Source of the DNA: Pedobacter sp. SYP-B3415
GTDB taxonomy: Bacteria; Bacteroidota; Bacteroidia; Sphingobacteriales; Sphingobacteriaceae
DNA: 64,000 nucleotides
Assembly: GCF_004138205.1 (NCBI RefSeq)
Contig: NZ_RXNQ01000031.1
Span: 248,001 to 312,000 of the forward strand
Direction of reading: 5' to 3'
Positions within the stretch are counted from its first letter, which is position 1, and every line of letters begins with the position of its first letter. Shown piece after piece: positions 20,576 through 55,985 of the stretch. Under the pieces are notes generated by a model. That model was not told where the DNA came from. It saw nothing but the letters and a program-made list of their open reading frames with translations, and did not search any database. The translations under genes were made by a program, and so were the position numbers.

Positions 20576-20602
20576 GATGTTCTTAAAAAGCAGCGGCTAA
20601 GT

Positions 20603-26077: not shown

Positions 26078-26094
26078 GCATAAATTAAAGATTT

Positions 26095-26798: not shown

Positions 26799-26812
26799 GA
26801 TATTCCTTATAT

Positions 26813-26848: not shown

Positions 26849-26882
26849 GGACCTGGGTAAGGGTCAATGCGTCCGGGATGGA

Positions 26883-28424: not shown

Positions 28425-28463
28425 TTCTGTGTTCTGTTTTAGGTTATCATTCTGGTAAAACCA

Positions 28464-29267: not shown

Positions 29268-29271
29268 GACT

Positions 29272-30429: not shown

Positions 30430-30541
30430 AGGTTTTGTTTTTTTTGCTGGCGATTAATTGTCCATTTGTTGAACAGGGCCGGCCATATGAAGTTTTCCAA
30501 AAAGCAAAAAATTGTATTCCTGATGGGCCTGAACGCTTGTC

Positions 30542-31099: not shown

Positions 31100-31150
31100 T
31101 GCTCTGATCTTAATTGTGTAGCCGACTCGCGTATACAAGAAAAGCCGGTA

Positions 31151-33901: not shown

Positions 33902-34070
33902 GTATGCAGGTTTAGTTTTTGAAAGAACACGGCATGAAGGGGAAAAGTTTATTTGACCATGTCCCATGGTCAGGCCCTAAACATTCCGTTGCCACGCTGG
34001 TTATAAAGAAAGTCAGCCTGGCCTGGTGCAGGGCTGTTTAGATGCTGTTAAAACGATAAAGAGAGAACCT

Positions 34071-34721: not shown

Positions 34722-34739
34722 GAACGAAGTTCAAAAGAA

Positions 34740-34777
34740 ACGGGCGGGGCGGTTGATTGCTCCCGCCCGTTTTTTTA
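34740..34777 (+). terminator. Intrinsic terminator between the hypothetical gene and glgX
   Basis: ACGGGCGGG (34740-34748) pairs perfectly with CCCGCCCGT (34762-34770), followed by a T-run to 34777. It overlaps the glgX stop (34775), so both convergent genes end here. Confidence 0.85.
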
Positions 34778-39679: not shown

Positions 39680-40011
39680 AAATGAGCTGGTTGCAGGCCT
39701 GATAATAGCGGTAATCAGATAAGCGCAAAGCACTGTTTAACAATAACTTTGCGTTATGTGGTAACACCGGGACCGCACTTGTGTTTCGCATGTTAGCACA
39801 ATGCGTAATTTACACCCCCGCGCGCTAATTACGCAGCAGCAAGGCGGGAGCCTCCGCGTCTCAAACAGCCTCTCCTCCAATTCTGTAGCCGCATACCGGT
39901 TTCCAGCTGGTGTGTAAATACGCCAGGCTACTGGTCAATTACTGAAAAACAAAATAGTCAAATCGTTAGACCGGGCGCCTGCGTTAGGGTATGAGAACTA
40001 ATCCCCTGAAT
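39680..40011. other. Divergent intergenic region with TGTTTAACA element
   Basis: 332 bases between the NarL regulator and the carbamoyltransferase gene. It holds TGTTTAACA at 39734-39742. The remainder shows no gene, riboswitch or repeat that I can identify. Promoters for both flanking genes must lie here. Confidence 0.4.
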
Positions 40012-41790
40012 ATGTATACACTCGGTATCAATGCAATCTTTCATGATTCTGCGGCCTGCCTGATTAAAGACGGCGTGCTTCTCTCGGCTGCAGAAGAAGA
40101 ACGTTTTACAGGCTATAAGCATGGCAAAAGGCCAATCCCTTTTTCTACGTATGAGCTGCCTTATCATGCCATAGCGTACTGCCTTGGTCAGGCGGGCCTG
40201 CACCTGAGTCAGATCGATCATATTGCGTACTCGTTTAATCCACTGTTGTGCACCGACAAGGGCATGGCAACGCAAGGCGAAGCGCCCATTCCGTTTTTTC
40301 CGCAAGCCGGCACAGATCCCGGGCGAAAGCGCATGTTATGGAATAACCTTTTTCTTTCATCGTCACTTAATGCGGCCGACCACCTCGTAGACGGTTATCC
40401 GCACCACTTGCAAGAATATTTTGTCGGCAGCCGGACAACCGACTGGGAATGGCATTTCGTAGACCACCATGTTGCCCATGCAGCCAGTGCCTTTTTGCCG
40501 TCTCCCTATTCACATGCAGCAGTTATGACGATAGACGGCCGCGGGGAGGACGTTTCGACAACCTATAGTCTTGGAGTAGGCCATGCACTAACCACGATCA
40601 GCGAAGTTAAACTTCCTCATTCGCTCGGCTTACTTTATGAACAGGTAACGAGCTATCTCGGATTTCTCCACTCCTCAGATGAGTACAAAGTAATGGCCCT
40701 GGCATCTTATGGTGAGCCTGAATATCTTTCAGTTTTCAGGGATCTTGTCAAGGTTCATGGCGACGGACAATATACAATTGAGCAGACACCACTTAACGAA
40801 CTGTTCGGTCCGGCACGCCTGCGTTCAGATTCATTTGATAAAAAACACTTTAACCTGGCGCGGTCGCTGCAGCTTGTGCTCGAAGAAACTGTGCTCGAGC
40901 TTACCGGCTGGCTGCGTAACGTCAGCATGGCCGACAACCTTTGCCTGGCTGGAGGCGTGGCGCTCAACTGTGTTTTAAACGGCCGCATACGCGATGAAAG
41001 CGGTTTCAAAGGCGTTTGGGTGCAGCCGGCATCCGGCGACTCGGGGACGGCACTCGGAGCCGCGCTTTGGATTGACAACAATATCAGGCAGCCGGCTGAA
41101 AAAGACTTTGTTATGGAACATGCCTACTGGGGACCTGAATACAGCGACCATGAGATCGAAAAACTGCTGCAATGGGCAAAGGTGCCATACAGGAAGATGG
41201 AAAATGTTGCAACAGAAACAGCTGAGATTCTAGCAGAAGACAAAATTATCGGCTGGTTTCAGGGGCGTATGGAGTTCGGTCCGCGCGCGCTCGGCAGCCG
41301 CTCCATTCTTGCCTCGCCTATCAGCACAGATATGCAGGCCCGTTTGAATGAGGTTAAAGACCGGGAAGATTTTCGCCCCGTTGCACCTGTGGTGCTGCAG
41401 GAAGATGCAGCAGAATGGTTTGAGGGGGCGGTTGAATCGCCATATATGTTATTTGTAAATAAAGTTGCAGCAGACAAGGCAGACCGCATTCCAGCTGTAA
41501 GACATGTAGACGGCACCGCGCGTATCCAAACAATTAACGCGAAGCAACATCCGCAATACTATGCCTTGCTGAAGGCTTTTAAAGAAAAGACCGGCGTTCC
41601 GGTGCTCGTGAACACGAGTTTTAACATTCTGGGCAAGCCCATAGTCTGCACACCAAAAGACGCCATCAGCTGTTTCTGGACATCGCCGTTTGACGCACTT
41701 ATTATGGGTTCATTTTTAATCGAGAAGAACAATGCCGATAAAAATATCAGTAGTTATTCCAACTTACAACAGAACGAACTTACTGCTTAA
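40012..41790 (+). CDS. NodU/CmcH-type carbamoyltransferase
   Basis: A 592-residue enzyme that transfers a carbamoyl group from carbamoyl phosphate, via carbamoyl-adenylate, to a hydroxyl on a sugar or natural product. The start MYTLGINAIFHDSAACLIKD at 40012 is preferred; an ATG at 39991 is also in frame. The N-terminal Kae1-like domain shows EEERFTG and the metal motif VDHHVAHAAS. The C-terminal YrdC-like part has QGRMEFGPRALGSRS, FRPVAPVV and NTSFNILGKPIVCTP, all family hallmarks. It opens a three-gene plus-strand operon with a GT2 and a GT9. Likely job: carbamoylating the glycan or product of the heptose cluster downstream. Confidence 0.9.
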   Translation: MYTLGINAIFHDSAACLIKDGVLLSAAEEERFTGYKHGKRPIPFSTYELPYHAIAYCLGQAGLHLSQIDHIAYSFNPLLCTDKGMATQGEAPIPFFPQAGTDPGRKRMLWNNLFLSSSLNAADHLVDGYPHHLQEYFVGSRTTDWEWHFVDHHVAHAASAFLPSPYSHAAVMTIDGRGEDVSTTYSLGVGHALTTISEVKLPHSLGLLYEQVTSYLGFLHSSDEYKVMALASYGEPEYLSVFRDLVKVHGDGQYTIEQTPLNELFGPARLRSDSFDKKHFNLARSLQLVLEETVLELTGWLRNVSMADNLCLAGGVALNCVLNGRIRDESGFKGVWVQPASGDSGTALGAALWIDNNIRQPAEKDFVMEHAYWGPEYSDHEIEKLLQWAKVPYRKMENVATETAEILAEDKIIGWFQGRMEFGPRALGSRSILASPISTDMQARLNEVKDREDFRPVAPVVLQEDAAEWFEGAVESPYMLFVNKVAADKADRIPAVRHVDGTARIQTINAKQHPQYYALLKAFKEKTGVPVLVNTSFNILGKPIVCTPKDAISCFWTSPFDALIMGSFLIEKNNADKNISSYSNLQQNELTA

Positions 41791-42703
41791 TTGTCTGAAA
41801 AGTCTGGCCGGGCAGCATTTAAATAAAGCGTTTTTTGAGGTGATTGTTGTGAGTGACGGCCCCGACCCGCAAACCCGCAGCGCACTCGAGGTTTATGCCG
41901 GGAAACGCCCCCTTAATTTGCGCTATCTGCACACAGCAGTAAAAAAGGGCCCTGCAGCTGCCCGCAATTTAGGCTGGCTGAGTGCACGCGGGCCGCTGGT
42001 TGCCTTTACCGATGATGACTGTCTCCCCGACCGCAACTGGCTAATCTCACTGCTCAGCCATTATAATGAAGGCCAGCTTATCGCGATGACAGGCCGTACG
42101 GTTGTTCCTGTAGGTAATATGGTTAGCGACCATGCCCTTAACACAAAAGGACTCGAAGATGCAGAATTCATCACAGCCAACTGTGCCATAAGCAAACAGG
42201 CGCTGATCCTAACGGGCGGCTTTGATGAAAGGTTCGAGCTGGCCTGGCGTGAGGATTCCGATCTGCATTTTCGCCTGTTAGAAAACAGCATAACTATTAT
42301 CAGGACACCTGAAGCCATCGTTGTTCATCCGGTGCGAAGCGGCCGGTTCGGCCTTAGCATTGCCGAGCAGAGAAAAGGGATGTATGATGCGCTGCTCTAC
42401 AAAAAATATCCCGCGTTCTACCGGCAGCGGATCCAGCAAAAACCGCTCTGGTACTACTATTTTATTAATCTGTTGTGGATCGTGGTACTGGCCGCCGCCT
42501 GGCGGCAGGAATGGTGGCTGGCTTACACAGGCCTGGCTGGTGTTGCTATTCTCTTGTTAAACTTCGCCTACAAGCGGCTCGTGCGCACCAGTAAGACCCT
42601 GCGCGATATTGCCGAAATGCTGGTAACGTCGCTCGTCATACCGACCCTATCGGTATACTGGCGGCTTGTCGGAAACATTCGCTTCAAAACAGTTCTTTTA
42701 TGA
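41732..42703 (+). CDS. Glycosyltransferase family 2 with C-terminal membrane helices
   Basis: A 323-residue GT-A fold transferase. The start MPIKISVVIPTYNRTNLL overlaps the carbamoyltransferase end by 59 bases. It has the nucleotide-sugar DxD in FTDDDCLPD, GPAAARNLGW, and the catalytic acidic ELAWREDSDLHFRL. Two hydrophobic segments near residues 245-280 (FINLLWIVVLAAAW, LAYTGLAGVAILLL) anchor it to the inner membrane. Its stop overlaps the next ATG by 4 bases. Acceptor and donor are unknown; it acts on the same product as its neighbours by inference. Confidence 0.88.
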   Translation: MPIKISVVIPTYNRTNLLLNCLKSLAGQHLNKAFFEVIVVSDGPDPQTRSALEVYAGKRPLNLRYLHTAVKKGPAAARNLGWLSARGPLVAFTDDDCLPDRNWLISLLSHYNEGQLIAMTGRTVVPVGNMVSDHALNTKGLEDAEFITANCAISKQALILTGGFDERFELAWREDSDLHFRLLENSITIIRTPEAIVVHPVRSGRFGLSIAEQRKGMYDALLYKKYPAFYRQRIQQKPLWYYYFINLLWIVVLAAAWRQEWWLAYTGLAGVAILLLNFAYKRLVRTSKTLRDIAEMLVTSLVIPTLSVYWRLVGNIRFKTVLL

Positions 42704-43692
42704 CAGGCCTAGAAAAATCTTTCCGCATCGGCATTCTCAGGGCGCTGCAACTTGGCGACCTGTTGTGCAGCATTCCGGCCATACGCGCCCTGCGTTCAGC
42801 ATATCCCGAAGCACACATTGAGCTGATCGGTCTGCCCGGGGCGGCCGCACTTACCGCGCGCTACCCCCAATATATTAATGCACTTGTGCCATTTCCGGGA
42901 TATCCCGGTTTGCCCGAGCAAACTTACGATCAGGCCCGGTTCGTTAATCTGGTTGCCGCTAACCGTATAAGTCCGTATGATCTGCTTTTGCAGATGCAGG
43001 GAAATGGCAGCATCGTGAACGAAATGCTGGCACAGTTCAATGCAAAACGCCTGGTGGGTTTCTGCCCATCGACTGAAGACGAAAGCGAAGATTTTATGCT
43101 CTATCCTGCAGGAATTCACGAAGTGGACCGGCACCTGCAGTTGATGCAGCATACCGGGATCGCAGCAGATGATCCTGCAATGGAGTTCCCGGTATGGGAG
43201 CAGGACCGGGAGAACCTGAGCCGGCTGATGCTGACCCACAACGGTCGACCATATATATGCGTTCATCCGGGATCACGCGGCAGCTGGAGACAATGGCCGG
43301 TTGCACACTTTGCCCGGATGGCGGATCTGTGTATTCATGAGGGGTTTGATGTTATTCTTACGGGCGTAGCCGCTGAACAGGAACTTTGCAATGCGGTAGC
43401 AGACAGTATGCGCATGCGGCCACAGAACGCCTGTGGCCTGACCGATCTGGGTACGCTGGCCGCCGTGCTGGAAGGCTCGGCCGGACTGCTGTGCAACTGC
43501 ACCGGTATTTCACATCTTGCTGCCGCACTGAAAGTACCCAGCGTGGTGATCAGTATGGACGGGGAACCGCGGCGCTGGGGACCTAGAAACACGAAAATTC
43601 ATCAGACATTAGACTGGAAAACCGCGCCGAATATGATGGCGGTGCTTTCTGCTATGGAAGCCCTGATCGGGAAAGCGCGAGCAGTGCACTGA
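42700..43692 (+). CDS. GT9 heptosyltransferase-like glycosyltransferase
   Basis: A 330-residue GT-B fold transferase of the ADP-heptose:LPS heptosyltransferase family. It has RILRALQLGDLLCSIPAIRAL at the start, YICVHPGSRGSWRQWPVAHF (the nucleotide-binding turn) and LCNCTGISHLAAALKVPSV near the C-terminus. Translation is coupled to the GT2 by an ATGA overlap. Its 3' end overlaps the convergent GT9 by 41 bases. It probably uses ADP-heptose made by the facing operon. Confidence 0.88.
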   Translation: MTGLEKSFRIGILRALQLGDLLCSIPAIRALRSAYPEAHIELIGLPGAAALTARYPQYINALVPFPGYPGLPEQTYDQARFVNLVAANRISPYDLLLQMQGNGSIVNEMLAQFNAKRLVGFCPSTEDESEDFMLYPAGIHEVDRHLQLMQHTGIAADDPAMEFPVWEQDRENLSRLMLTHNGRPYICVHPGSRGSWRQWPVAHFARMADLCIHEGFDVILTGVAAEQELCNAVADSMRMRPQNACGLTDLGTLAAVLEGSAGLLCNCTGISHLAAALKVPSVVISMDGEPRRWGPRNTKIHQTLDWKTAPNMMAVLSAMEALIGKARAVH

Positions 43693-44749
43693 CGACATCG
43701 CCGGGGGCCGGCGGGGCAAGTTGTTTCTTATAAAGTTTCCTGTTCACGTAGCCAATGACCGCATTGCTGCTAGGCATTATACCTGTAGGTGAATAATAAA
43801 ATACCTGGTTTTTTACTTTCCAGGGCGTATGCTGAGGATTTGTTCTCGCATACAAGACACACACAGGCGTTTTTGTTGCCGCAGCGAGGTGAACTGTGCC
43901 GGTATTAACCGATAAGACGCCGGCTGATTTTCTGACCAGATAGGCGAGTTCTGCCACGTTGAGATTTCCCGCAAAGATGACGACATCAGGCACGGCAGCT
44001 TTCATGGCCGAAAGCTCAGACTGCTGGGATTTTGTGCCTGTCAGCACAATTCCGTAACTGCTGTGCGCCCGCAATGATTTCAACAGCTCAAACCAGTAAG
44101 CAAGAGGCAGGTTGCGGCGGCGTTCAGATGCGCCGGTGCTGACAACAAAAAAGTGTTGATCAGGTGCAATACCGGCCCTGGCAAGCTCCTTCACCGTTCG
44201 CTGCCTTGCAGCAGCGGGAATCTCGGCGATGAGATCATCAGCTGAGGGTATCGCGCCGATTTCTGCGACCAACGCAAGATCGCGGGAAACCTGGTGAAGA
44301 ATTTTTTCATAAGGTTCCTCATCCGGCACCCAGTTTGTAAGCAGCCCATAGGGGTTCTCGCGGCAATAGGCCAAGCGCAACGGGATCCCGGCCAGGTATG
44401 CGAGCATGATGCAGGGCATCGGGTTCTGGCTGTAAACTGTAAAGACAACGCAGCCGTCAAAACGCTGCTCCCTTAGTCTGGCGACCAGGTCAAGCACTGC
44501 GGCCGCTCCCGGATCGAGGTCATAGAACTTCTGCCAGGGAAGGTCGAAGGTGATCACCTCGTCAACAAAAGGATTAAGACGGGCGGCAGCGGCACCTTTT
44601 TGAGATGTCAGTATAGCAAGCTGGACGCCGAAATGTTCTTTTAACGCCCGGATGGCCGGCGATGACATGAGTACATCGCCCATATTATCAGGGCGTATGC
44701 ATAAGATGCGCCGGCAGGTATTCCAGTTACTCAACTGATTGTCGCCCAT
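43652..44749 (-). CDS. GT9 heptosyltransferase-like glycosyltransferase
   Basis: A 365-residue GT9 transferase. It has the typical start RILCIRPDNMGDVLMSSPAIRAL, the middle nucleotide-binding region FFVVSTGASERRRNLP and the late GVLSVNTGTVHLAAATKTP. Last gene of the minus-strand heptose operon; its start overlaps the end of hldE by 19 bases. It is paralogous in fold, not in close sequence, to the plus-strand GT9 at 42700-43692. The two probably add successive residues. Confidence 0.88.
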   Translation of the reverse strand: MGDNQLSNWNTCRRILCIRPDNMGDVLMSSPAIRALKEHFGVQLAILTSQKGAAAARLNPFVDEVITFDLPWQKFYDLDPGAAAVLDLVARLREQRFDGCVVFTVYSQNPMPCIMLAYLAGIPLRLAYCRENPYGLLTNWVPDEEPYEKILHQVSRDLALVAEIGAIPSADDLIAEIPAAARQRTVKELARAGIAPDQHFFVVSTGASERRRNLPLAYWFELLKSLRAHSSYGIVLTGTKSQQSELSAMKAAVPDVVIFAGNLNVAELAYLVRKSAGVLSVNTGTVHLAAATKTPVCVLYARTNPQHTPWKVKNQVFYYSPTGIMPSSNAVIGYVNRKLYKKQLAPPAPGDVVSALLALSRSGLP

Positions 44750-46218
44750 CCGTTCCTGAATTGTGCTGCTGCAATTTTCTTGATGACTGCAGAAGTGGAT
44801 CTGCCGCTTACTACTGGTATAAACGCGATTTCTGCACCCAACTGCTCAAGGAGGGGCTGTTCGGGCAGGACTGCACCTTTATAATCTCCGCCCTTAACAA
44901 AAACGTCGGGTCTTACCTGTTTGATCAGGCTGCATGGCGTGTCGTCTTTTAAACTTCCGAAGGGTATCACATAATTGACACAAGACAGCGAGCTCAGTAC
45001 TTCCATCCGGTCAGAGAGACTGTTTACCGGACGGTCGCTTCCTTTTAATCGCCTGATGCTGTCATCGCGGTTCAGGCCTACAACCAGCAGATCGCCCATC
45101 TCACGGGCTTGCTGCAGGTAACGGACATGGCCGCTGTGCAGAATATCAAAACAACCGTTTGTAAAAACGATTCTTTTACCGGCAGCCCTGGCCTGTTCCA
45201 ATAAAGCAAGCACAGCATTTTTAGCCAGGTCTTTCCCGGCGGGAGCGCCGGCGGCAAGCAGCTCTGCTGGTGCGCAACAGGCAGTTCCTGATTTTGTCAG
45301 CACGACCGAAGCAGCTTGTGTACCGATTGTCGCGGCTTCTGCAGGCGTCGCTGCGCAGATCAATGCGAGCGCAGCGGCGCCTGTAAAAGTATCGCCCGCT
45401 CCGCTCACCTGCGGATTTTGCACCCTGAGGGCGGGCACCACTGCCTCAAGCTGATTACCGCTAAAAACCATGCATCCCGACTCGTCAAGCGTGAGAAACA
45501 CATGTTCAGCACCGGTGCGCTCACGTAACTCCGCTCCTGTCGCCTGCAGCTCGGTGATGCGGGCCTGCTTAGACACTTCGCGGCCCAGCAATACCTGCGC
45601 CTCTTCAAAATTCGGCTTGATCATAGACGGGCAAAGAGGGCGAAAACGCCAGGCCTCCTTGCTGTCTACCGCCAAAAAAAGAGACTTGTCCTGCTGGCAT
45701 GCTGCGATCTGATCAATAACCGGTTGCACGAAACACCCTTTGCCGTAGTCTGACAGCAAAATCCCGTCGAAATCCGGCCATTCCTGCTTCAAATTGGCAG
45801 ACAGATGTGCGGCATGATGCCCGTCGAGCGGCAGCTCACAGCCTTCATCAACACGCAAAAAGGTCTGCCCCCCCGATGAAAACCGGTGCTTTGTAATCGT
45901 TGTGCGGTCGTCTGCCATGCGCAGCATACGGACATCGATTCCCCTTGAAACAAGCATTTCACGGATCTGCCTGCCAGCAGTGTCATTACCGGTAACTCCG
46001 GCGATCGAAACGCTGGCACCGAGCGCGGCTACATTTGCGGCGAGATTCGCCGCCCCGCCAAGATAATAGGTATGTTGATCGGCATTTAGCACCGGTGCGC
46101 TGACCTCGGGAGCCAGGCGCCTGCACGTTCCAGTTGTATAGATATCCAGCATCAGATCGCCGACTACCAGCACGCGCCGGCCGGCAAAATCACGCAGGAA
46201 TTCTTTTAGATTTCTCAT
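44731..46218 (-). CDS. hldE: Bifunctional heptose 7-phosphate kinase / heptose 1-phosphate adenylyltransferase
   Basis: A 495-residue two-domain enzyme of ADP-heptose synthesis. I take the start at 46218 (MRNLKEFLRDFAGRRVLVVG); it overlaps the end of gmhB by 29 bases. Residues 1-325 are a ribokinase-fold kinase, with GGAANLAANVAALG (54-67) and the catalytic GAGDTF (273-278). Residues about 348-490 are a nucleotidyltransferase with FTNGCFDILHSGH (352-364, HxGH) and GRSTSAVIKKI (472-482). Both functions look intact. Substrate order in the pathway: GmhA makes heptose 7-phosphate, HldE phosphorylates it at C1, GmhB removes the 7-phosphate, HldE adenylylates. Confidence 0.93.
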   Translation of the reverse strand: MRNLKEFLRDFAGRRVLVVGDLMLDIYTTGTCRRLAPEVSAPVLNADQHTYYLGGAANLAANVAALGASVSIAGVTGNDTAGRQIREMLVSRGIDVRMLRMADDRTTITKHRFSSGGQTFLRVDEGCELPLDGHHAAHLSANLKQEWPDFDGILLSDYGKGCFVQPVIDQIAACQQDKSLFLAVDSKEAWRFRPLCPSMIKPNFEEAQVLLGREVSKQARITELQATGAELRERTGAEHVFLTLDESGCMVFSGNQLEAVVPALRVQNPQVSGAGDTFTGAAALALICAATPAEAATIGTQAASVVLTKSGTACCAPAELLAAGAPAGKDLAKNAVLALLEQARAAGKRIVFTNGCFDILHSGHVRYLQQAREMGDLLVVGLNRDDSIRRLKGSDRPVNSLSDRMEVLSSLSCVNYVIPFGSLKDDTPCSLIKQVRPDVFVKGGDYKGAVLPEQPLLEQLGAEIAFIPVVSGRSTSAVIKKIAAAQFRNGWATIS

Positions 46219-46789
46219 TTGACAGTTTAGTTTGTTCAATAATTATCCTTGCGGCTTCATTCAAACTCGGAACAATAAGGTCCGGCTCCCGGTAAGGCCC
46301 GGGAATCCATTGGTCTTCGTTACCATTGCTGATCACGACCGACTGGCAGCCGCTGCGCTTTCCGGCCTCTGCATCGTCCAGAATATCGCCGATCATCCAC
46401 GATCGCGACAGGTCAATCTTGTGCCTCCGGGCCGCCAACAGGATCATGCCGGGTTTTGGTTTCCGGCAAGCACAATCGCAGGTGTAGGCAGGTACTACCC
46501 CTTCCGGATGATGCGGGCAGAAAATAAAGTCGTCGAGGCAGATGCCTTCTGCCAGCAGCAGTTCCCTGAGCCGGCGCTCCACACCTTCCAGGGCTTCAAC
46601 CGGGAAAAGACCGCGTGCCACGCCCGACTGATTGGAAATAACGATCAGCGCAAACCCCGATTCCTGAAACAGCCGTAATCCTTCAATGGTGTGTTCAGAC
46701 AGCCTGATCAGCGACGGGTCTACGTTATAAGGCACATCATGGATCAGCGTACCGTCTTTATCCAGAAAAATGGCAGGCCTAACTCCCAT
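46190..46789 (-). CDS. gmhB: D-glycero-beta-D-manno-heptose 1,7-bisphosphate 7-phosphatase
   Basis: A 199-residue HAD phosphatase. The motif DKDGT at Asp10-Asp12 carries the nucleophile, ISNQSGVARG is motif II, CRKPKPGM holds motif III Lys, and GDILDDAEAG (Asp135) is motif IV. The zinc loop typical of GmhB is present: Cys91-x-His93 (CPHHPEG) and Cys104-x-Cys106-x-Cys108 (CDCACRKP). It overlaps the previous gene by 11 bases and hldE by 29. Function is clear from both sequence and position. Confidence 0.92.
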   Translation of the reverse strand: MGVRPAIFLDKDGTLIHDVPYNVDPSLIRLSEHTIEGLRLFQESGFALIVISNQSGVARGLFPVEALEGVERRLRELLLAEGICLDDFIFCPHHPEGVVPAYTCDCACRKPKPGMILLAARRHKIDLSRSWMIGDILDDAEAGKRSGCQSVVISNGNEDQWIPGPYREPDLIVPSLNEAARIIIEQTKLSNEKSKRIPA

Positions 46790-48692
46790 AGCGGCGTTTT
46801 TGAGGTTCCTGTGTCACTGTTTCAGCAGCAAGCTTGACAGGCATCATCCTGATGGGTTGTGCAGCCTGGCCGGTTAAATGTGCCGGACGGGCGGCAAACA
46901 AATGTTTTTCCACCAGCGTGCAAAGCAGATGCACGAGGTGCAGATGGAGCTCCTGGATACGCTGCGTGCTGTCTGAGGGAACAACCAGGGGAATATCGGC
47001 AAGGTTCGAAGCCGGTCCGCCGTCTTTTCCCAGCAAGGCGATGGTCTGCATGCCGTTTTCTGCCGCCGCCTGCATAGCAAGCGTGATGTTTGCAGATTTA
47101 CCACTGGTGCTTAACACAACAAGTACATCGCCCGGCTGACCGTAGGCCATAACCTGACGTTCGAAAACGCGGTCGTAACCAAAATCATTTGCCCAGGCGG
47201 TCAGAATAGCCGTATCTGCTGTCAGCGAAATGACCGGCAGCCCCCGGCGCTCGGGAATCTCAAAACGACCCACAAGCTCAGCGGCCAGGTGTTGTGATTC
47301 GGCGGCGCTGCCGCCATTGCCGCATACCAGGATCTTACCCCCCCGGCGTAAGCACCCGCTCATCACCGCAGCTGCGTCGGCCACCACAGATGAAAGCATT
47401 GCAGAAGACCGGTAAAACGTCAATGCAGCTTCGTACAGCGCGTCTTCGACCTCTGCAATGTCGTCTTCCGCTTCGTGCAGAAACGCCGGCTCCAACACCC
47501 GCTGGTAAGCCGCAGCAATTTGCATGGCCACTTTTCCCCAGGTAAAATGCCGGTTTACCCGTTTTATCGCTTCTGCTCCCATTCTAAGCCTGGCCGGCTC
47601 ATCACAAAGCAATACGGTTAATTGTCTTGCCAGCGCGGCCGGGTCATTTTCCGGCACGAGGAAACCTGTCTTACCATCCTCAACGGTGTATTTGATTCCC
47701 CCAACCCTTGCACCGACCACCGGTGTACCGCAGGCCATCGACTCAAGCGGTGTTATGCCAAATGGTTCATACCAGGGTGTGGTTACAAAGACGTCGGCAG
47801 CATTATAATAGGCGCCAAGTTCTTTTCGCTGCCGGCTGCCTTCAAATATGACCTGGCTTTCCACGCCCAGCGAGCGGGCGATACCTTTCAAACGGAGCAT
47901 CTCAGCATCGCCGGCGTTTCCCCCCACTACAACGAGCTTAACAGGCTCAGTGCAGTCTATGTGAGGAAGCGCACGGATCACATTATCTATGCCTTTGCGT
48001 GGAACCATTCTGCCCAGCTGCAGGATAATACGTTCGTTTTCTGCAAAACCAAGCCGGCTGCGCGCCGAAACTTTATCGATCGGAAAAAATTCCTCAGGAT
48101 TAAAGCCGCATGGTATCACTTCTATTTTAGCTGGATCTGCATTGTAAAAATTCAGAAGATCATCCCGGTCCTGCGGGCATTCGGCAATGATAAGATCGGC
48201 GTTCTTAACCAGCGCGGCTTCTACAGCGAGCCTGCCCTCTGGAAAAAGATCCTGATCTTTCTGATGCATGCGCCGAACCTTTCCCAGCGCATGAAACGTG
48301 ATCACGAACGGAAGATGCATTGTTTTTTTCAGCTCCATAGCCACCATACCCGACATAAAGAAGTTTGCATGGACAAGCTCATACGTGAGGTTTTCCTGCA
48401 GCATAAAATCTCTCATGCCAAATCCGAAAGCGTCCATCAGATCAAACAGTTCTTCCTTTGGAACCACTTCTTTGGAACCTGCCTGAACGTGGATCACTCT
48501 TATCCCGGGACCCATGTCAATAACCTGCGGCAGAGCGGGGTCCTCCCAGCGGGTATAAATGTCGATTGCGTATCCCATTTTTGACAGGTGTAATGCGAGC
48601 TGTCCAACATATACATTCTGCCCGCCACCGTCTTTATGACCGAGACTGGCCAGCGGCGAAGCGTGTTCGCTAATAAATGCTATTCGTTTCAT
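46779..48692 (-). CDS. Fusion of GT4 glycosyltransferase and phosphoheptose isomerase (GmhA)
   Basis: A 637-residue protein, start at 48692 (MKRIAFISEHASPL). Residues 1-405 are a GT4 transferase of the sucrose-phosphate-synthase-like type: GHKDGGGQNVYVGQLA, RMVPRKGIDN and EPFGITPLESMACGTPVVG. After a linker (about 405-425) residues 426-600 are a full SIS domain of the GmhA type, with CGNGGSAAESQHLAAEL (457-473: His468, Glu472), STSGKSANI and RIQELHLHLVH (Gln580, His588). GmhA turns sedoheptulose 7-phosphate into heptose 7-phosphate. The metal and substrate residues are all kept, so the isomerase half looks active. Such a fusion couples the first heptose step to a transferase. Confidence 0.9.
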   Translation of the reverse strand: MKRIAFISEHASPLASLGHKDGGGQNVYVGQLALHLSKMGYAIDIYTRWEDPALPQVIDMGPGIRVIHVQAGSKEVVPKEELFDLMDAFGFGMRDFMLQENLTYELVHANFFMSGMVAMELKKTMHLPFVITFHALGKVRRMHQKDQDLFPEGRLAVEAALVKNADLIIAECPQDRDDLLNFYNADPAKIEVIPCGFNPEEFFPIDKVSARSRLGFAENERIILQLGRMVPRKGIDNVIRALPHIDCTEPVKLVVVGGNAGDAEMLRLKGIARSLGVESQVIFEGSRQRKELGAYYNAADVFVTTPWYEPFGITPLESMACGTPVVGARVGGIKYTVEDGKTGFLVPENDPAALARQLTVLLCDEPARLRMGAEAIKRVNRHFTWGKVAMQIAAAYQRVLEPAFLHEAEDDIAEVEDALYEAALTFYRSSAMLSSVVADAAAVMSGCLRRGGKILVCGNGGSAAESQHLAAELVGRFEIPERRGLPVISLTADTAILTAWANDFGYDRVFERQVMAYGQPGDVLVVLSTSGKSANITLAMQAAAENGMQTIALLGKDGGPASNLADIPLVVPSDSTQRIQELHLHLVHLLCTLVEKHLFAARPAHLTGQAAQPIRMMPVKLAAETVTQEPQKRRYGS

Positions 48693-48693
48693 T

Positions 48694-49641
48694 TCAGGTC
48701 TGATTTTTATAACGCTCAATTAATTCACCGAAGAGGGTGTTCCAGTCCTGACAGAAGCGGTCAATGGAAAACTTCTCGTGGGCAACGGTTCTCGCATTTG
48801 CTCCCATCTTCTCGGCCTGTTCGGGATATTCAAGCATAAACTTCATTTTGGCAATAAGCTGATCAATATCGGTATGTACAAAGCCCGAGTAACCCGATTC
48901 AATTGTTGTCGCCAGTTCGGTCGTGGCAAGGCCTACTACCGGCAAGCCGCACATCATGGCTTCGCAAATGCTCAGTCCGAGACTGGTATAGCGGATCGGG
49001 TTAAAAAAGAAGCGGTATTGAGAAATGAAAGCTGGCAACTGCGGATGCAGCACTTCGCCAAGACCGATGTCTTCAGTAGCCATGCCCACCAGATCCAGCG
49101 GAACCTCTGCAGCGACCCTGCTAAAAATGTCAGCGCCAAGCATACGCCCTCTTGATGACAAATTGTTTATAACCACGATGCCGCGGTTTTTCTTTTCGGA
49201 GACCAGTAGTACAGGCACAGTGACACCATGCGGGATTACGCGGGTCGGGCGGCCGCCGTTGTCCCACATCAATGCGTTAAAGTGTGTAACGTGCACTACC
49301 GTCACCTCCGGATCTTCAACAGGATGCCGTTCATCTGTCGGGTGCTGCCAGGGCGGGTCATGTTCAAGGAATACGCGTGGAAGCTGCCGCTGTTCATCTG
49401 AGAGAATCTGATACTGATCTTCGAGGTAATTTTTTTCGGTTTGGTAAAGGATCAAATCAAAGTCTGCGTCCCGGACTTCATTTACATCGATCTCATGAAC
49501 GTTCGCGCCAAAAGGGAAAGTAGTGCCCCGGCCATAGTACCCTTCATCTTTTTTCTGATTTACGGGGATGTATAGTTCCCATGGCCCCTGAGACAGGTAA
49601 TAGAGGTAACTCCCATGAATATGCCAGGTGAATATCCTCAT
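48694..49641 (-). CDS. GT4-type glycosyltransferase
   Basis: A 315-residue GT-B transferase. Only the C-terminal donor half is clear: a short Gly-rich region, then FNPIRYTSLGLSICEAMMCGLPVVGLATTE (the E-x7-E region) and the helix LIAKMKFMLEYPEQAEKMG. The N-terminal half is shorter and diverged (MRIFTWHIHGSYLYYLSQ). It is overlapped by 4 bases by the acidic protein gene upstream, and the GT4-GmhA fusion begins one base after its stop. Donor unknown; perhaps it starts the glycan of this cluster. Confidence 0.82.
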   Translation of the reverse strand: MRIFTWHIHGSYLYYLSQGPWELYIPVNQKKDEGYYGRGTTFPFGANVHEIDVNEVRDADFDLILYQTEKNYLEDQYQILSDEQRQLPRVFLEHDPPWQHPTDERHPVEDPEVTVVHVTHFNALMWDNGGRPTRVIPHGVTVPVLLVSEKKNRGIVVINNLSSRGRMLGADIFSRVAAEVPLDLVGMATEDIGLGEVLHPQLPAFISQYRFFFNPIRYTSLGLSICEAMMCGLPVVGLATTELATTIESGYSGFVHTDIDQLIAKMKFMLEYPEQAEKMGANARTVAHEKFSIDRFCQDWNTLFGELIERYKNQT

Positions 49642-50550: not shown

Positions 50551-50979
50551 TTAGACCCCTGCAATGGTTCGGCTGCCGCGTTGTGCCAATACATCGTTCA
50601 CCTCATTTAACAGGGCCTTCAGATCAAAAGGTTTTTCCAGGAAACGGTCGTAGCCATAGTCGCCTATAGACAACAGCAGCCTGGGGAACGCTGAATAGAT
50701 GATGACCGGCAGGCGCCGCGCCGGTTCCATTCGTTTAATCTGACTGCAGAGTTCGCCGCCGTTGGTAAGCGGAAGCAGGTGATCGAGTAAGACGATGTCG
50801 GGATTCTTTTTCTCTACGACCGGAATGATATCGCTGGTTGCGGGCAGACAGTCAAAATAAAATCCCTCTTCGGTAAACAGCTGTTCAAGAATTTCTGCAA
50901 GTGCCGGATCGTCTTCAACAAGCAGGATTCTCGGCCGGTGATCCGCTTTCCCATTTTGCAGTTCCATATCACTATACAT
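50551..50979 (-). CDS. Single-domain response regulator
   Basis: A 142-residue receiver with a short N-terminal extension. The start is at 50979; an ATG at 50967 is equally placed. The acidic pair is ILLVEDDP, the phosphoacceptor is in IVLLDHLLPLTNGGELC, and the conserved Lys is in FLEKPFDLKALL. No output domain. Divergent from the NarL-type kinase gene at 51163 with 183 bases between, so they may be partners. A possible -7 box, TACTTTTG, lies at 50995-50988 on the minus strand. Confidence 0.85.
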   Translation of the reverse strand: MYSDMELQNGKADHRPRILLVEDDPALAEILEQLFTEEGFYFDCLPATSDIIPVVEKKNPDIVLLDHLLPLTNGGELCSQIKRMEPARRLPVIIYSAFPRLLLSIGDYGYDRFLEKPFDLKALLNEVNDVLAQRGSRTIAGV

Positions 50980-51162
50980 TAGATGAGCAAAAGTAGGCCA
51001 AAATAAACCGCAGAACTGTTCGGAAATTACTGATTATGAACGCACGAAATACGCAAAGCCCAGGGGTTTACCTGATTCGTTCATGAATACTGCTGCATTG
51101 AATATCTTTACTCAGCCCAAACAACTCAGGAATATCCGGGTTGTATATTAAACCACCGATAC

Positions 51163-52947
51163 ATGTCTGCAGATTTAACGACGATTTCAGAAGGCGAGAC
51201 CATGCCGCTTGCTGCCGATCTGCTTGATGCGATCGCCCAGCCCTGTTGTTTGCTGGATGATACGTTTGTAATCAGATATGTAAACAACCCATTCTGCGCT
51301 GCCATTGGTAAATCGCGTTCAAAAATTGAAGGCACGCCGTTGCTCACGCTGCTTTCCGGGCGCGAAGCTGAGCGATTGCTTGCAATGGTTGCGGGTCATA
51401 CACAGGAATTTATTGTCACGATAGCCGGGCTGGACACCTGTACCCTTAAACCATGTACCATGGGCTGGATGCTTAGCTGCACCGGCGCAGCAGTAAAGAA
51501 CACCCCGCCACAGGCTGAGGCCGCGCTTTCTAACCCAAAACTTTTGCAGGCCATATTCGATACCAGTCTTGTTCAGATTTCTATGCTGAAATGCCGCCGT
51601 ACTGCTGAAGGCAAGGTTGAGGATTTTGAAATCATTTTCACCAACAAGGAACTGGAGAGGGAGACGGGAAGAAAGGACCTGATCGGCAAATTATATGCGC
51701 AGGAGTATCCCGGTATCAAAGCCGCCGGCATTTTTGACACCATGGTCCGCGTGCTCGAAACCGGAAAATCAGAAAAGCTGGAATACTACTATCCCTATGA
51801 ACAGTTCAACAAGTGGTTTTCCTGCAGTTTCGTGAAACTGGGAGACGGACTTGTGGCAACAAACATCGACGTAACGCAGCATAAACTAGCCGAAGAGGAA
51901 CGGATTAAAAACTATGCGCTGTTATCACACTCAGAGCGCGTAGCCGACTTTGGTTCATGGGAATACGATCTGATTTCAGGTAGCCTAAGCTGGTCTGAGG
52001 GTATGTACCGAATATTCAAGGCGGCTCGAAGCGAGCGTATTGACCCCGGCATTTACATACGTTTTTCGAGTACAACAGGTAATGAGACGGCAAGCCGAAT
52101 TGCTGCTGCTATTGTTGCTGGGCAGCGGGATTTTACAGAAACGCTGGAGATACGTGCCGGGAACAGGAAAAAGACCATTCTGGTGAAAGCCAAGCTCATG
52201 CGAAGTAAAAAAGGCTGGCCGGTCAAGATCCTGGGTGTCGACATGGATATAACCAGGTCAAAGAAAATCCAGGAAAAGATGCAGGCGCTCGAAAAACAAC
52301 AGCAGCGACAGATTTTCCAAATGACGGTCAAGAACCAGGAAGACGAACGGAGACGTCTCTCTGAGAACCTGCACAATGGTCTGGGCCAGTTGTTGTATGG
52401 AATCAAGATTGGCATAGCCCGCATAAACGCAAAAAAGGCGGCCCGGGATCCTGAACGTTTTGGCGAAGAAAAACAGCAGCTTGAAGAAATTGTGACCAGT
52501 GCCATCAACGAAACAAGACGAATTGCGCACGAACTCGTACCTGCGGCTCTTGAGGCGCATGGACTTTTCTTCGCTGCCGAAAAGATGTGTGAACAACTGA
52601 GCGGAACCACACGGTTTGAATGCAGTTTTTTCGGACAGGAGGAACACGCTGATAAGTTTTTACTCGTAGCTGTTTACCGCATGCTTCAGGAACTTGTTAC
52701 AAATGTGATAAAACATGCTCAGGCGAGCCACGCCCAGGTGAGTATAGAAATTGACGAGGAAAGCATGCAACTGCGCGTTACCGACAATGGCAAAGGCATG
52801 GGTACTACGCCAGGCAATGGTGGCATTGGGCTTAAATCGATAGCCGGAAAAGTTCGACTGCTATCAGGAACTTTCAAAATTGCTAATCCGGAACGGACAG
52901 GTACCCGGGTATTTATCCGGCTGCCGCTGTCAAAAAGTACGCCCTAG
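51163..52947 (+). CDS. PAS-domain sensor histidine kinase (NarL partner type)
   Basis: A 594-residue cytoplasmic kinase with no membrane helix. Three PAS-like domains (about 20-105, 125-255 and 270-370), a coiled segment, then HisKA_3 (about 385-450) with its H-box EDERRRLSENLHNGLGQLL, and a HATPase (about 490-590) with YRMLQELVTNVIKHAQASHA (N-box) and RVTDNGKGMGTTPGNGGIGL. This kinase type phosphorylates NarL/FixJ regulators. The regulators at 39.0 and 59.3 kb are candidates. The signal sensed is unknown. Confidence 0.9.
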   Translation: MSADLTTISEGETMPLAADLLDAIAQPCCLLDDTFVIRYVNNPFCAAIGKSRSKIEGTPLLTLLSGREAERLLAMVAGHTQEFIVTIAGLDTCTLKPCTMGWMLSCTGAAVKNTPPQAEAALSNPKLLQAIFDTSLVQISMLKCRRTAEGKVEDFEIIFTNKELERETGRKDLIGKLYAQEYPGIKAAGIFDTMVRVLETGKSEKLEYYYPYEQFNKWFSCSFVKLGDGLVATNIDVTQHKLAEEERIKNYALLSHSERVADFGSWEYDLISGSLSWSEGMYRIFKAARSERIDPGIYIRFSSTTGNETASRIAAAIVAGQRDFTETLEIRAGNRKKTILVKAKLMRSKKGWPVKILGVDMDITRSKKIQEKMQALEKQQQRQIFQMTVKNQEDERRRLSENLHNGLGQLLYGIKIGIARINAKKAARDPERFGEEKQQLEEIVTSAINETRRIAHELVPAALEAHGLFFAAEKMCEQLSGTTRFECSFFGQEEHADKFLLVAVYRMLQELVTNVIKHAQASHAQVSIEIDEESMQLRVTDNGKGMGTTPGNGGIGLKSIAGKVRLLSGTFKIANPERTGTRVFIRLPLSKSTP

Positions 52948-53100
52948 AACGCACATTTTCGTAACCATTCGGAAGTTAAAAACCTGAATATTTTTCTCGT
53001 GCGCGTATTGTTGTGACCACAATCCATTTATCACTAGCTTTACAACTGTAAGTAAATACTGAATCAGCGCACGTGACAAAAAAAACACACAAAAGCAACC

Positions 53101-53107
53101 AGGAGGG
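53101..53107 (+). promoter_or_regulatory. Ribosome site fixing the CheB-CheR start
   Basis: AGGAGGG at 53101-53107 ends 10 bases before the ATG at 53118. This argues for that start rather than the GTG at 53073, which has no such site. Confidence 0.6.
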
Positions 53108-53117
53108 ATCGGCCAAA

Positions 53118-55985
53118 ATGCCTAAAACCAAATCCTTTCCTATCGTAGCAATCGGCGGCTCTGCCGGTGCATTTTCCTCACTTGAGCGTTTCTTTACGCA
53201 TATGCCGGCTGATAGCGGGATGGCATTTGTCATCATTATGCATCTCTCGCCCAATCACATCGGCAAGATTTCTGAAGTTTTTAAAAGTTTTACCGCCATG
53301 CCGGTGCTTGAAGCTGCCGACGGCGCTCAGGTTGAGCCTGATCACGTTTATGTGATTCCGCCTGATAAAGATCTGGGTATACACAACAGAAAACTACTTC
53401 TTTTAAACATCAGCAAACCAAATGGTTACCGGCAACCTATCGACTATTTCCTACAGAGCCTTGCAGACGATCAATGGAACCGGGCGGTTGGTATCATCTT
53501 GTCAGGCATGGGTTCAGACGGCGAAACGGGTGTACGGATGATCAAGGAAAAGCTGGGCATCGTGATGGTCGAGGACCCCGAAGGCGCCCAGTACAGCAGT
53601 ATGCCCAACGCTGCCATTGGCACCAATTTAGTTGATTATGTGCTCTCGCCGGACGAAATGCCGCTGAAGCTGATTCAATACATCAATCATCCTGTTCTGG
53701 CAGAAGAGCCTTCGGAGCAGGCCAGAACCGAGATCAGAAACAGCACCTCAGTGCAGAAGATCCTGATGCTGCTGCGCTCGCACACCGGTCATGACTTTTC
53801 ACTTTATAAAAAAAGCACCATCATCAGGCGGATTGACAGGCGTGTTGCTTTCCACCAGTTGCCTGATTACGTTCACTATGTTACTTACCTCCGCGAAAAT
53901 CCGATTGAAATCGATACACTCTTTAACGAACTGCTGATCGGCGTTACGAAATTTTTCCGCGACGGCGCTGCATTCGATTCGCTGAAAAAAAAGATTGAAA
54001 CACTGCTCGCGGAAAAGAAACCCGGCGAACCGGTTCGTGCATGGATAGCCGGATGCTCGACCGGTGAAGAAGCGTATTCAGTAGCTATGCTCCTGATGGA
54101 GTGTACAGAAGCCAAACGAAAGGAAAAGCCTCCAAAAATTCAGATCTTTGCTACCGATCTTGACAGCAACGCCGTTGAGCAGGCCCGGCTGGGCAGTTAC
54201 CACGGCAACATCATTGCCGATGTATCTGAAGAAAGGCTGCAGCGTTTTTTTATCAAGGAGGATGAAGGTTACCGGGTTAAAAAAGAATTACGCGAAATGA
54301 TCGTTTTTGCCCAGCACAACCTGATCAAAGACGCGCCTTTTACCTGGCTAGACCTGTTATGCTGCCGCAACGTGATGATCTACCTGACCAGCGAACTGCA
54401 GCGAAAGATTATGCCGATCTTTCATTATTCGCTTAACAACAGGGGGATCATGTTCATGGGCCCGGCCGAAACCATTGGTGGTTTCACGGAACTCTTTGTT
54501 GCCTCAGACCCGAAATGGAAAATCTTTGAGCGCAAAGAAGGCAGTTCGGCCATGAATAAAATGATCGACTTTCCGTTTCAGGTTGCCCGACCGGTGGTGA
54601 GTGTAGCCCGTAGTGAGGAAACAGAAAACAGATCAAAGAAGAATTCAGTGGCAGAATCTTTTAACAAGATCGTGCTTGAACACTTCACTCCTACTGCGAT
54701 TCTAATAAACGACCGGGGCGACATCTTGTACAGCAGCGGCAAACCCGGAAACTTTTTGCAGCTGCCCCGTGGCGAAGCTGTCATGAACATCCACAAGATG
54801 GCACGTGAAGATTTGCGCTACGTATTGGGAAACGTGATTCATCAGGCTATTACCCAGCGCGGGCTTGTCACCATCAGCGATGTCAAAACAAAGGAAGGTG
54901 ATCAGATTCGTTTACTGCGGTTAAATGCAAGCCCGCTTGAAGATTCAGAGATGCGCGGCCTCATTATGCTGGTTGTCGAAGACATGGGTGTGATGAAAAA
55001 AGCAGCCCGCAGGTCTGCCCGTTCGGCCCAATCCAACCGCCAGGAAATAGAAGAAATGGAGAAAGAGCTGGTTTATACAAAGCAGCAACTACACAGTACC
55101 ATAGAGCAGATGGAAACATCGCTCGAAGAGTTAAAATCAACGAATGAGGAACTGCAAAGTACCAATGAAGAACTGCAAAGCACCAACGAGGAATCGCTGA
55201 CAACCAAAGAGGAAATGCAATCGCTCAACGAGGAGCTGATGACGGTGAATATTCAGTATCAGTCTAAGGCCGAAGAGCTTGGACGCCTGAATAATGATAT
55301 GAAAAACCTGCTCGATTCGACAGAGATCGGCACCATCTTTCTGAACAACGACCTGGAAATTCTGCGGTTTACGCCACAGATCAAAACTTTGTTCAGTATC
55401 ATACCGGCAGATATCGGCAGACCCTTGTCAGACCTGGTAGCAAACTTTGATTATGCGCCGCTTGAGGAAACGACAAAGGAAGTAATTGACAGGCTCAACA
55501 CGCGTGAGATTGAGATCAAGACCCGCAGCCACGAGTGGTACAGGGTCAGGATCATGCCCTACCGCACTACCGACAATTTTATTTCGGGGGCTGTGATAGC
55601 CTTTACCGCGATTACCTCTTACAAAAAAATGGAGATCAAGATCGACGCTGTCCGGGAATATGCCCAATCGCTTGCGACTAATCTCAGTCTCCCGGCAGCC
55701 GTACTCGACGCCAGGTTAAATATACAATCTGAAAATACGTCACTGACGAAATTATCACATGGCCGGATACAAACTGGCCAAAAATTTGAGACCTTCCTGA
55801 AGAATAACTTTTCAGGGGTTGATGCTGCCCCGATAATTTCAGAACTGGGGCAGTTGAAAGCACCAGCCAAAATAAGGATCGAAATGGCAGCAACTTCGTT
55901 TATGTTAACGGTGATGCCTTTCTTCAGCGATGATTCGACCCCGATATTTTTTGTGATAACGATAGAGGAGGTGCCCCGTGAATGA
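53118..55985 (+). CDS. CheB-CheR-PAS fusion (hybrid methylesterase/methyltransferase)
   Basis: A 955-residue cytoplasmic protein. Residues 5-190 are a CheB methylesterase domain without receiver: IGGSAGAF (Ser15), MHLSPNHIG (His42), SGMGSDGETG (Asp134). About 210-465 is CheR methyltransferase: VTKFFRD, AGCSTGEEAYSVAML (SAM site), FATDLDSNAVEQA and DLLCCRNVMIYL. Then a PAS-like segment, a long coiled coil (about 640-720) with repeats of STNEELQ, and one more PAS domain (about 725-840). The fusion is common in bacteria that lack or modify chemotaxis; methylation targets there are unknown. The 3' end overlaps the next kinase gene by 8 bases. Confidence 0.9.
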   Translation: MPKTKSFPIVAIGGSAGAFSSLERFFTHMPADSGMAFVIIMHLSPNHIGKISEVFKSFTAMPVLEAADGAQVEPDHVYVIPPDKDLGIHNRKLLLLNISKPNGYRQPIDYFLQSLADDQWNRAVGIILSGMGSDGETGVRMIKEKLGIVMVEDPEGAQYSSMPNAAIGTNLVDYVLSPDEMPLKLIQYINHPVLAEEPSEQARTEIRNSTSVQKILMLLRSHTGHDFSLYKKSTIIRRIDRRVAFHQLPDYVHYVTYLRENPIEIDTLFNELLIGVTKFFRDGAAFDSLKKKIETLLAEKKPGEPVRAWIAGCSTGEEAYSVAMLLMECTEAKRKEKPPKIQIFATDLDSNAVEQARLGSYHGNIIADVSEERLQRFFIKEDEGYRVKKELREMIVFAQHNLIKDAPFTWLDLLCCRNVMIYLTSELQRKIMPIFHYSLNNRGIMFMGPAETIGGFTELFVASDPKWKIFERKEGSSAMNKMIDFPFQVARPVVSVARSEETENRSKKNSVAESFNKIVLEHFTPTAILINDRGDILYSSGKPGNFLQLPRGEAVMNIHKMAREDLRYVLGNVIHQAITQRGLVTISDVKTKEGDQIRLLRLNASPLEDSEMRGLIMLVVEDMGVMKKAARRSARSAQSNRQEIEEMEKELVYTKQQLHSTIEQMETSLEELKSTNEELQSTNEELQSTNEESLTTKEEMQSLNEELMTVNIQYQSKAEELGRLNNDMKNLLDSTEIGTIFLNNDLEILRFTPQIKTLFSIIPADIGRPLSDLVANFDYAPLEETTKEVIDRLNTREIEIKTRSHEWYRVRIMPYRTTDNFISGAVIAFTAITSYKKMEIKIDAVREYAQSLATNLSLPAAVLDARLNIQSENTSLTKLSHGRIQTGQKFETFLKNNFSGVDAAPIISELGQLKAPAKIRIEMAATSFMLTVMPFFSDDSTPIFFVITIEEVPRE

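Follow-up and report, generated by a model that had tools for sequence, protein, structure and literature searches.

The 64,000-nucleotide stretch of Pedobacter sp. SYP-B3415 DNA analysed here (the window; contig NZ_RXNQ01000031.1, positions 248,001 to 312,000) carries two converging operons, which we think probably form one cluster making a heptose-containing glycoconjugate, usually O-carbamoylated and distinct from the inner core of lipopolysaccharide (LPS). Every part of the cluster belongs to a known family, and its genes are predicted to form a compact set by which this soil bacterium would make a heptose-containing, usually carbamoylated sugar compound. The original prediction, made from the DNA letters alone, had proposed an undescribed system producing a D,D-heptose-bearing, carbamoylated surface glycan or small molecule. 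What it observed was confirmed and its interpretation is partly supported and extended by the present work; indeed, no description of this cluster, or of a fusion between a family 4 glycosyltransferase (GT4) and a GmhA-type isomerase such as it contains, was found among the titles and abstract openings listed by searches of the open-access PMC literature. No word beginning with "heptose" occurs in the accessible part of PMC5850320. NDP-heptoses have mostly been examined as precursors of LPS and as ALPK1 agonists, and a commentary on how widely they occur (PMC11461863) asks about their role elsewhere. The cluster offers a concrete place to seek a probable non-LPS use of heptose common to three phyla.

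Profile matches to Pfam and NCBIfam models confirmed eight open reading frames and their families in the window, with a minus-strand operon facing a plus-strand one. The minus strand carries a short GT4-type glycosyltransferase of 315 residues that serves as the marker of the cluster (GT4b, 48694..49641, Glyco_trans_1_4), the 646-residue fusion of an MshA-like GT4 to a GmhA-type SIS domain (46779..48719), a GmhB-like HAD phosphatase (46190..46789, over the cut-off of TIGR01656), the kinase and nucleotidyltransferase HldE (44731..46239) and a WaaF-like member of the heptosyltransferase family GT9 (GT9b, 43652..44749), which aligns with the WaaF structure 1psw. On the plus strand lie an O-carbamoyltransferase of the NodU/TobZ type (39991..41790), a GT2 glycosyltransferase (41732..42703, Glycos_transf_2) and a second heptosyltransferase-family glycosyltransferase (GT9a, 42700..43692). 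Neighbouring minus-strand frames overlap by 11 to 50 bases, counted from the first possible start, and the 3' end of GT9a overlaps GT9b where the two operons converge. The families and tight packing first proposed for the heptose operon hold, but the operon runs further than was thought, to 43652.

Among 201 genomes of the order, an MshA-like GT4 is present in 44 (E <= 1e-100), fused to the SIS domain in 15 (the window's genome included; genus labels g1, g2, g5, g12 and g14) and unfused in 29 (g3, g4, g6, g7 and g10), where it is a stand-alone protein of about 430 residues. Within stretches of about 20 kb, the 15 fusion loci hold SIS, GmhB and GT9b in all cases, HldE and GT9a in 14, GT4b in 13, and the carbamoyltransferase and GT2 in 10 each. 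The 29 unfused loci hold GmhB and GT4b in 25 each, GT9b in 22, GT9a and the carbamoyltransferase in 20 each and GT2 in 19, with neither HldE nor SIS in any. Strong stand-alone matches (over 160 bits) show the opposite distribution: GmhA is found in 29/29 unfused versus 3/15 fusion genomes (G016, G162 and G186; Fisher p 2e-8), and an HldE nucleotidyltransferase outside the cluster in 29/29 versus 2/15 (G016 and G162; Fisher p 2e-9), p-values that treat related genomes as independent and, as the two forms sort by genus, overstate that independence. Since fusion loci bring SIS and HldE and unfused genomes all have separate gmhA and hldE, the fusion cluster appears to supply its own heptose pathway and the fused form to be a self-sufficient version. 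This is most simply explained if the cluster requires activated heptose and brings genes of its own mostly where the genome otherwise supplies none. Nature has in this way run an experiment, a self-sufficient fused form against an unfused one with a housekeeping pathway at its side, and this comparison links the cluster to the supply of heptose.

The heptose would not be of the usual LPS type. In the host genome (4.47 Mb in 37 contigs, 99.96% complete, sharing its genus label with G014), the HldD model TIGR02197 gave 16 matches, the best at 94.7 bits (cut-off 274.6). In eight relatives this model reaches 361-384 bits, and in 2/14 control genomes it passes the cut-off, so that the presence of a known-family HldD at another place in the genome was rejected. 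More broadly, HldD exceeds the cut-off in 0/15 fusion versus 8/29 unfused genomes (p 0.037). No second strong GmhA was found genome-wide either: the only other SIS_2 match scores 28.5 bits, leaving the fusion as the sole strong GmhA. An hldD and a further gmhA elsewhere had been named as the observations that would speak against the original prediction, and this genome was found to hold neither.

The carbamoyltransferase operon had been associated with the heptose operon because the two converge, and across genomes they indeed belong to the same conserved cluster. The enzyme is assigned to its family by profile, its N- and C-terminal domains (Carbam_trans_N and Carbam_trans_C) scoring 207.7 and 244.8 bits, over their cut-offs; it falls short of NodU proper (NF041651, 198.4 versus 1000 bits), and its PDB matches are TobZ, GdmN and decarbamoylnovobiocin carbamoyltransferase. 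The carbamoylated product first proposed remains the usual expectation but not an essential one, as no relative of the enzyme was found in four Sphingobacterium fusion genomes at E <= 1e-20, so that carbamoylation is optional. Three unfused genomes (G151, G054 and G113) keep only GT4b, GT4 and GmhB together and have their carbamoyltransferase elsewhere.

Corresponding clusters are found well beyond the family. Relatives of GT4b occur in Burkholderiales (49-53% identity) and in Actinobacteria (33-35%); among 395 Bacteroidota genomes sampled, GT4b was present in seven (E <= 1e-40), six of them from the window's family. Paraburkholderia, Burkholderia and Cupriavidus carry GT4, GmhB, a WaaF-type GT9, the carbamoyltransferase, GT2, GT9 and GT4b, and the Burkholderiales cluster stretches examined contain neither SIS nor HldE. 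The same seven genes, again without SIS and HldE, are present in a Bacteroidota genome of another family (G443). In Streptomyces sp. CA-256286, one run comprises epimerase, carbamoyltransferase, GT2-type, HAD, GT9, GT4b, MshA-like GT4, SIS, HldE and GT9 genes together with two further glycosyltransferases. Nonomuraea has all ten of these kinds of gene and a short-chain dehydrogenase/reductase (SDR) within about 11 kb, Arthrobacter has no carbamoyltransferase within the 21 kb examined, and S. fungicidicus has a shorter version. Surroundings were examined for 8 of 16 plasmid records; only GT4 matches the cluster references in L044 (a cyanobacterium), and only SIS in L075 and L076. Actinobacteria are not known to have LPS, and the corresponding clusters there argue against an LPS core, which could not be the product common to all these clusters to which their gene content points. 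What the cluster makes is probably more than ordinary LPS of the cell surface, and is worth finding.

Two further observations concern the Burkholderiales. Their loci add a PIG-L deacetylase, a GT2 and a UDP-glucuronate decarboxylase (L042:7037-8744 and 20266-21285, L043:13317-18403, L078:15458-17962), and those of Burkholderia and Cupriavidus an SDR as well; the PIG-L, GT2 and decarboxylase genes suggest glucosamine- and xylose-type additions to the product there. In the GmhB tree, the copies of the window and of G024 group with two Burkholderiales copies (support 95) and not with the other Bacteroidota fusions, a hint of horizontal transfer.

The fusion itself is a single uninterrupted frame. 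That it is a chance or frame artefact was rejected on account of this one open frame and its occurrence in 15 genomes, although in one of them (G162) a stop lies inside the matched region. The listed TTG start (48719) is probably wrong and the true start the ATG at 48692, because the closest relative (L046) begins at an ATG corresponding to residue 10 here. Residues ~10-412 form a GT4 resembling MshA and sucrose-phosphate synthase (SPS) and residues ~418-610 a GmhA-type SIS domain. The AlphaFold2 model (mean pLDDT 82.8, pTM 0.64) has these as two mostly confident domains, connected through a weak hinge (412-416) and followed by a tail of low confidence (610-646). The SIS half aligns with solved GmhA enzymes and scores 91.5 bits with SIS_2 (Pfam cut-off 27), but 191.4 bits with the GmhA equivalog TIGR00441, whose cut-off of 209.45 bits is reached by 52 of the 201 genomes. 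A scan of named genomes found the fusion at nine loci of Pedobacter and Sphingobacterium, of which four duplicate loci of the 201-genome set (L067, L068, L070 and L071, equal to G014, G078, G154 and G165, dropped before trees and residue counts) and five are further Sphingobacteriaceae loci; across the fusion loci, the gene order with GT4b, GmhB and HldE is mostly kept. When 18 of the 20 distinct fusion proteins, all but L055 and L069, are aligned, the invariant residues are K88, H143, R163, R237, K242, E318 and E326 in the GT4 half and C466-S475, E481, D512, Q522, S537-G540, Q589 and H597 in the SIS half. E481, Q589 and H597 fall in columns common to solved GmhA enzymes, and by motif we take them to be the counterparts of the catalytic Glu65, Gln172 and His180 of E. 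coli GmhA. The intact catalytic residues noted at the outset are in this way conserved in the active-site columns of both halves.

Whether the fusion has a functional meaning is another matter. Substrate channelling, suggested at first sight by a glycosyltransferase joined to the first enzyme of the pathway, is only a possibility: in Streptomyces (L079), the unfused MshA-like GT4 and SIS genes already adjoin with a 4-base overlap, and 29 relatives have the GT4 without SIS, so that the fusion may simply follow from adjacency. That neighbouring genes merely ran together, with no channelling or control beyond operon co-expression, has in our estimate only slightly less than an even chance. Against it, a single branch of the SIS tree, with a support of only 66, has the 20 fusion rows together on one side, and five genus labels retain the fusion, a hint that it at least does no harm. 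The GT4 tree intersperses fused with unfused rows and shows five label changes in its best version, only one of them forced by well-supported branches. A tblastn search of the 29 unfused loci for SIS remnants after the GT4 gene returned six weak matches (best E 0.068), which lie away from that gene where positions were compared. The GT4-isomerase fusion lends itself to direct testing.

The acceptor of the GT4, a point not considered in the original prediction, is likely a phosphorylated compound other than inositol phosphate. In a fold comparison covering the GT4 half only, the nearest structures were SPS Tll1590 (Z 51.2) and MshA (Z 50.7), with the next family about nine units lower, and both of these enzymes act on phosphorylated acceptors. 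MshA is also the best NCBIfam model, although its equivalog TIGR03449 is not reached (310.5 versus 462.5 bits). Of the four residues that we take to be the inositol-phosphate contacts of MshA (K78, Y110, T134 and R154), the equivalents of the two charged phosphate ligands are kept (K88 in 55 of 57 rows, with R or T in the others, and R163 in 57/57), whereas the other two are changed (Y110 to F in 54/57 and T134 to A in 55/57); L044_8815 is left out of these rows. It is this retention, together with SPS and MshA as nearest folds, that makes a phosphorylated acceptor likely. By the general chemistry of sucrose synthesis (SPS and sucrose-phosphate phosphatase) and of mycothiol synthesis, the likeness extends from the GT4 fold and its two charged ligands to the HAD phosphatase gene next to GT4 in most Bacteroidota loci. 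The present system differs in the two replaced contacts, in a phosphatase that is GmhB-like, and in the GT9, carbamoyltransferase and heptose genes attached to it.

This phosphatase aligns with solved D,D-heptose-1,7-bisphosphate phosphatases and has the motifs DKDGT, NQSG, CPHH, CxC RKP and GD, which we take to be the HAD motifs and the Cys/His zinc motif; it misses the cut-offs of NF006506 (137.8 versus 178 bits) and TIGR00213 (121.9 versus 149.6 bits). Cluster GmhB proteins stand apart from 15 selected non-cluster homologues in the tree (support 99), and GmhB is kept beside GT4 in 25/29 of the unfused loci of Bacteroidota, which have neither SIS nor HldE; its retention fits a role as product phosphatase. 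In G151, G054 and G113 (L105, L109 and L113), the cluster GmhB has an altered zinc motif, with CPNH for CPHH and the second Cys of CxC missing.

HldE has both expected domains, PfkB and CTP_transf_like, in order and over their Pfam cut-offs, as well as PDB matches. It passes TIGR02199 (190.5 versus 181.5 bits) but neither PRK11316 (362.9 versus 521) nor the kinase model TIGR02198 (237.6 versus 345). In its tree, the cluster nucleotidyltransferases and those of the actinobacterial clusters come together and are separated from 13 of 15 stand-alone copies by well-supported branches (97); the remaining two are full-length genes at second loci in G162 and G075. At these loci (L098:1-2209 and L100:2444-4500), the HldE gene is paired with an SDR that is 49-52% identical to the SDR of the Burkholderia cluster. 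An SDR also adjoins HldE in Arthrobacter and Nonomuraea, which suggests that it may act on the activated heptose. Both GT9 proteins clear the Glyco_transf_9 cut-off of 22 bits (83.7 and 73.2) and fall below the specific models of WaaC, WaaF or WaaQ type, WaaF for GT9b (TIGR02195, 83.4 versus 134.6 bits) and WaaC for GT9a (72 versus 185.3 bits).

Put together, these assignments allow a route to be proposed. The SIS half would convert sedoheptulose 7-phosphate to D-glycero-D-manno-heptose 7-phosphate, and HldE and GmhB would carry it on to NDP-D,D-heptose, which would not be epimerised because HldD is absent. The MshA/SPS-like GT4 half would start or extend a chain on a phosphorylated acceptor, whose phosphate the cluster HAD phosphatase may also remove, by analogy with sucrose synthesis. 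The two GT9 enzymes would add heptose, GT4b and GT2 would add further sugars, and the carbamoyltransferase would cap the product except in lineages that have none, a step for which the carbamoylated heptose of the Pseudomonas core is a precedent (PMC8005017). Part of this synthesis may take place at the membrane via GT2, as suggested by a hydrophobic C-terminal segment in 33 of 36 orthologous rows (threshold 1.7; one row a duplicate) on the Kyte-Doolittle scale, a rough guide and not a topology prediction; the window copy (1.62) and two of the three actinobacterial rows fall short. A bolder version holds that the product is a stress-protective, carbamoylated oligosaccharide of heptose, of a new class and made by the logic of sucrose synthesis. 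The fused GmhA domain would hand heptose 7-phosphate (or sedoheptulose 7-phosphate) straight to the GT4 as acceptor, the GmhB-like HAD would act as product phosphatase, the two GT9 enzymes would extend with NDP-D,D-heptose, and Bacteroidota, Burkholderiales and LPS-free Actinobacteria would all produce related molecules. This version is improbable.

Several observations weigh against a single non-LPS heptose glycoconjugate cluster. Curated equivalog cut-offs are missed for GmhA, the HldE kinase, GmhB, MshA and GT9. The GT4 gene lies away from any cluster in 4/29 unfused genomes (G040, G048, G051 and G105); in G048 the rest of the cluster is at another place, and G105 has the GT4 alone with no carbamoyltransferase match. 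The SIS tree does not group the fusions with the actinobacterial cluster proteins. GmhB-like HADs occur in 8/10 Pedobacter genomes without an HldE match (G015 having a 94-bit GmhA-like match), and in the stretches from Actinobacteria, Cupriavidus and B. multivorans the gene for GT4 does not adjoin that for GmhB. For these two reasons, a special GT4-phosphatase partnership is only suggested, and the idea that the cluster GmhB is redundant and hence special was weakened. In the window HldE, an Arg precedes the ST motif (GRSTS) within the (F/L)XXGXSTT region. This Arg is present in 8/18 fusion loci (window included) and 4/5 actinobacterial loci versus 0/15 stand-alone copies, the other 10/18 fusion loci having Gln or Lys. 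The residue at this nucleotidyltransferase motif has been linked to the use of CTP and UTP, according to the accessible part of PMC11461863, and by this resemblance the donor may be other than ADP-heptose alone. The same source describes the multifunctional heptose enzymes of Tang et al. 2024, which share with the present system non-LPS heptose enzymes, fused forms and the Arg at STT; in those enzymes the nucleotidyltransferase stands alone or is joined to a kinase or an isomerase/kinase, while here the isomerase is joined to a glycosyltransferase. Finally, none of the eight cluster genes of the window encodes a transporter, but an ABC-transporter-type gene lies near the cluster in the Paraburkholderia and B. 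multivorans stretches and an MFS transporter adjoins the S. fungicidicus version, which makes export of the product possible; the surface location first proposed is likewise only a possibility.

An ordinary core of LPS or lipooligosaccharide would account for part of the gene set. The shared enzymes of the ADP-heptose pathway for LPS core (GmhA-HldE-GmhB-HldD, then WaaC/WaaF) are those of the GmhA, HldE, GmhB and GT9 types, and in Sphingobacteriaceae a carbamoylated inner core with D,D- in place of L,D-heptose could be built by two WaaC/WaaF-family GT9 enzymes and a carbamoyltransferase, in the manner of Pseudomonas WaaC, WaaF and WapO. Carbamoyl groups on heptose are indeed known in the Pseudomonas core, with WapO as the putative carbamoylating enzyme (accessible part of PMC8005017), a likeness in the type of product. 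However, no fusion genome has HldD over the cut-off, GmhA is fused to a GT4, and the cluster has GT4b, GT2 and an MshA/SPS-like GT4 in addition. Its counterparts in the Gram-positive Streptomyces and Nonomuraea speak against a core function, as do the separate heptose pathway in 29/29 unfused-GT4 genomes and a patchy distribution within the genus, where 20 listed genomes have no GT4 at E <= 1e-100. Another point against it is G005 (L148:9330-11773), in which the carbamoyltransferase abuts a 234-residue GT4b stump and only the two cluster ends are kept, apparently by internal deletion of the cluster core. An LPS core is, all considered, quite unlikely.

The chances are smaller still for a secreted heptose-bearing natural product comparable to septacidin or to the sugars of hygromycin, itself a heptose antibiotic. 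The carbamoyltransferase relatives TobZ, GdmN and the novobiocin enzyme act on antibiotics, the S. fungicidicus version has its adjoining MFS transporter, and septacidin is a heptose antibiotic of Streptomyces (PMC11461863, accessible part). Nevertheless, the annotation of the Burkholderiales and Streptomyces stretches examined includes no polyketide synthase, non-ribosomal peptide synthetase or nucleoside gene (the Bacteroidota loci being labelled against cluster references only), and the cluster is kept across genera of one family with stress-type neighbours. A mycothiol-like thiol or inositol glycoside pathway, with the GT4 as MshA and the Burkholderiales PIG-L as MshB, is hardly credible, since the MshA profile score, the second-best fold match and the nearby PIG-L that favour it are offset by the missed MshA cut-off, the replaced Y110 and T134 contacts, the lack of any Burkholderiales-type PIG-L labelled in the Bacteroidota loci and the heptose genes that it leaves unexplained.

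With a non-LPS heptose glycoconjugate as the preferred product, its surroundings point to a possible role in stress. Stress-type genes lie beside 17/39 cluster loci versus 0/20 control stretches (p 2e-4, relatedness of genomes ignored). The recurring genes, scored by per-gene identity thresholds with references from this window, are two SDRs and DUF4142-type, FAD-Rieske-type and alcohol dehydrogenase genes. The 39 loci exclude the window and those of G040, G048, G051 and G105, and of the 20 controls, displaced by ~500 kb, 19 come from these same genomes. LigD, GlgX and MgtC were found beside the cluster in 0/39 loci, and a LigD relative is present at a named locus outside these (L074). In the Burkholderiales, the genes around the loci include those for manganese catalase, hemerythrin, DUF892 and BON proteins.

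In the window itself, a stress-type island lies upstream (25064-36907), with an SDR and a zinc alcohol dehydrogenase by Pfam, and DUF4142-, FAD-Rieske-, DNA ligase D- and GlgX-like genes named by eye. On the other side, positions 50551-57558 encode a response regulator (Pfam) followed by PAS/histidine kinases and a 970-residue CheB-CheR-PAS protein (by eye), relatives of which (>= 50% identity) lie near the cluster in 2/39 loci.

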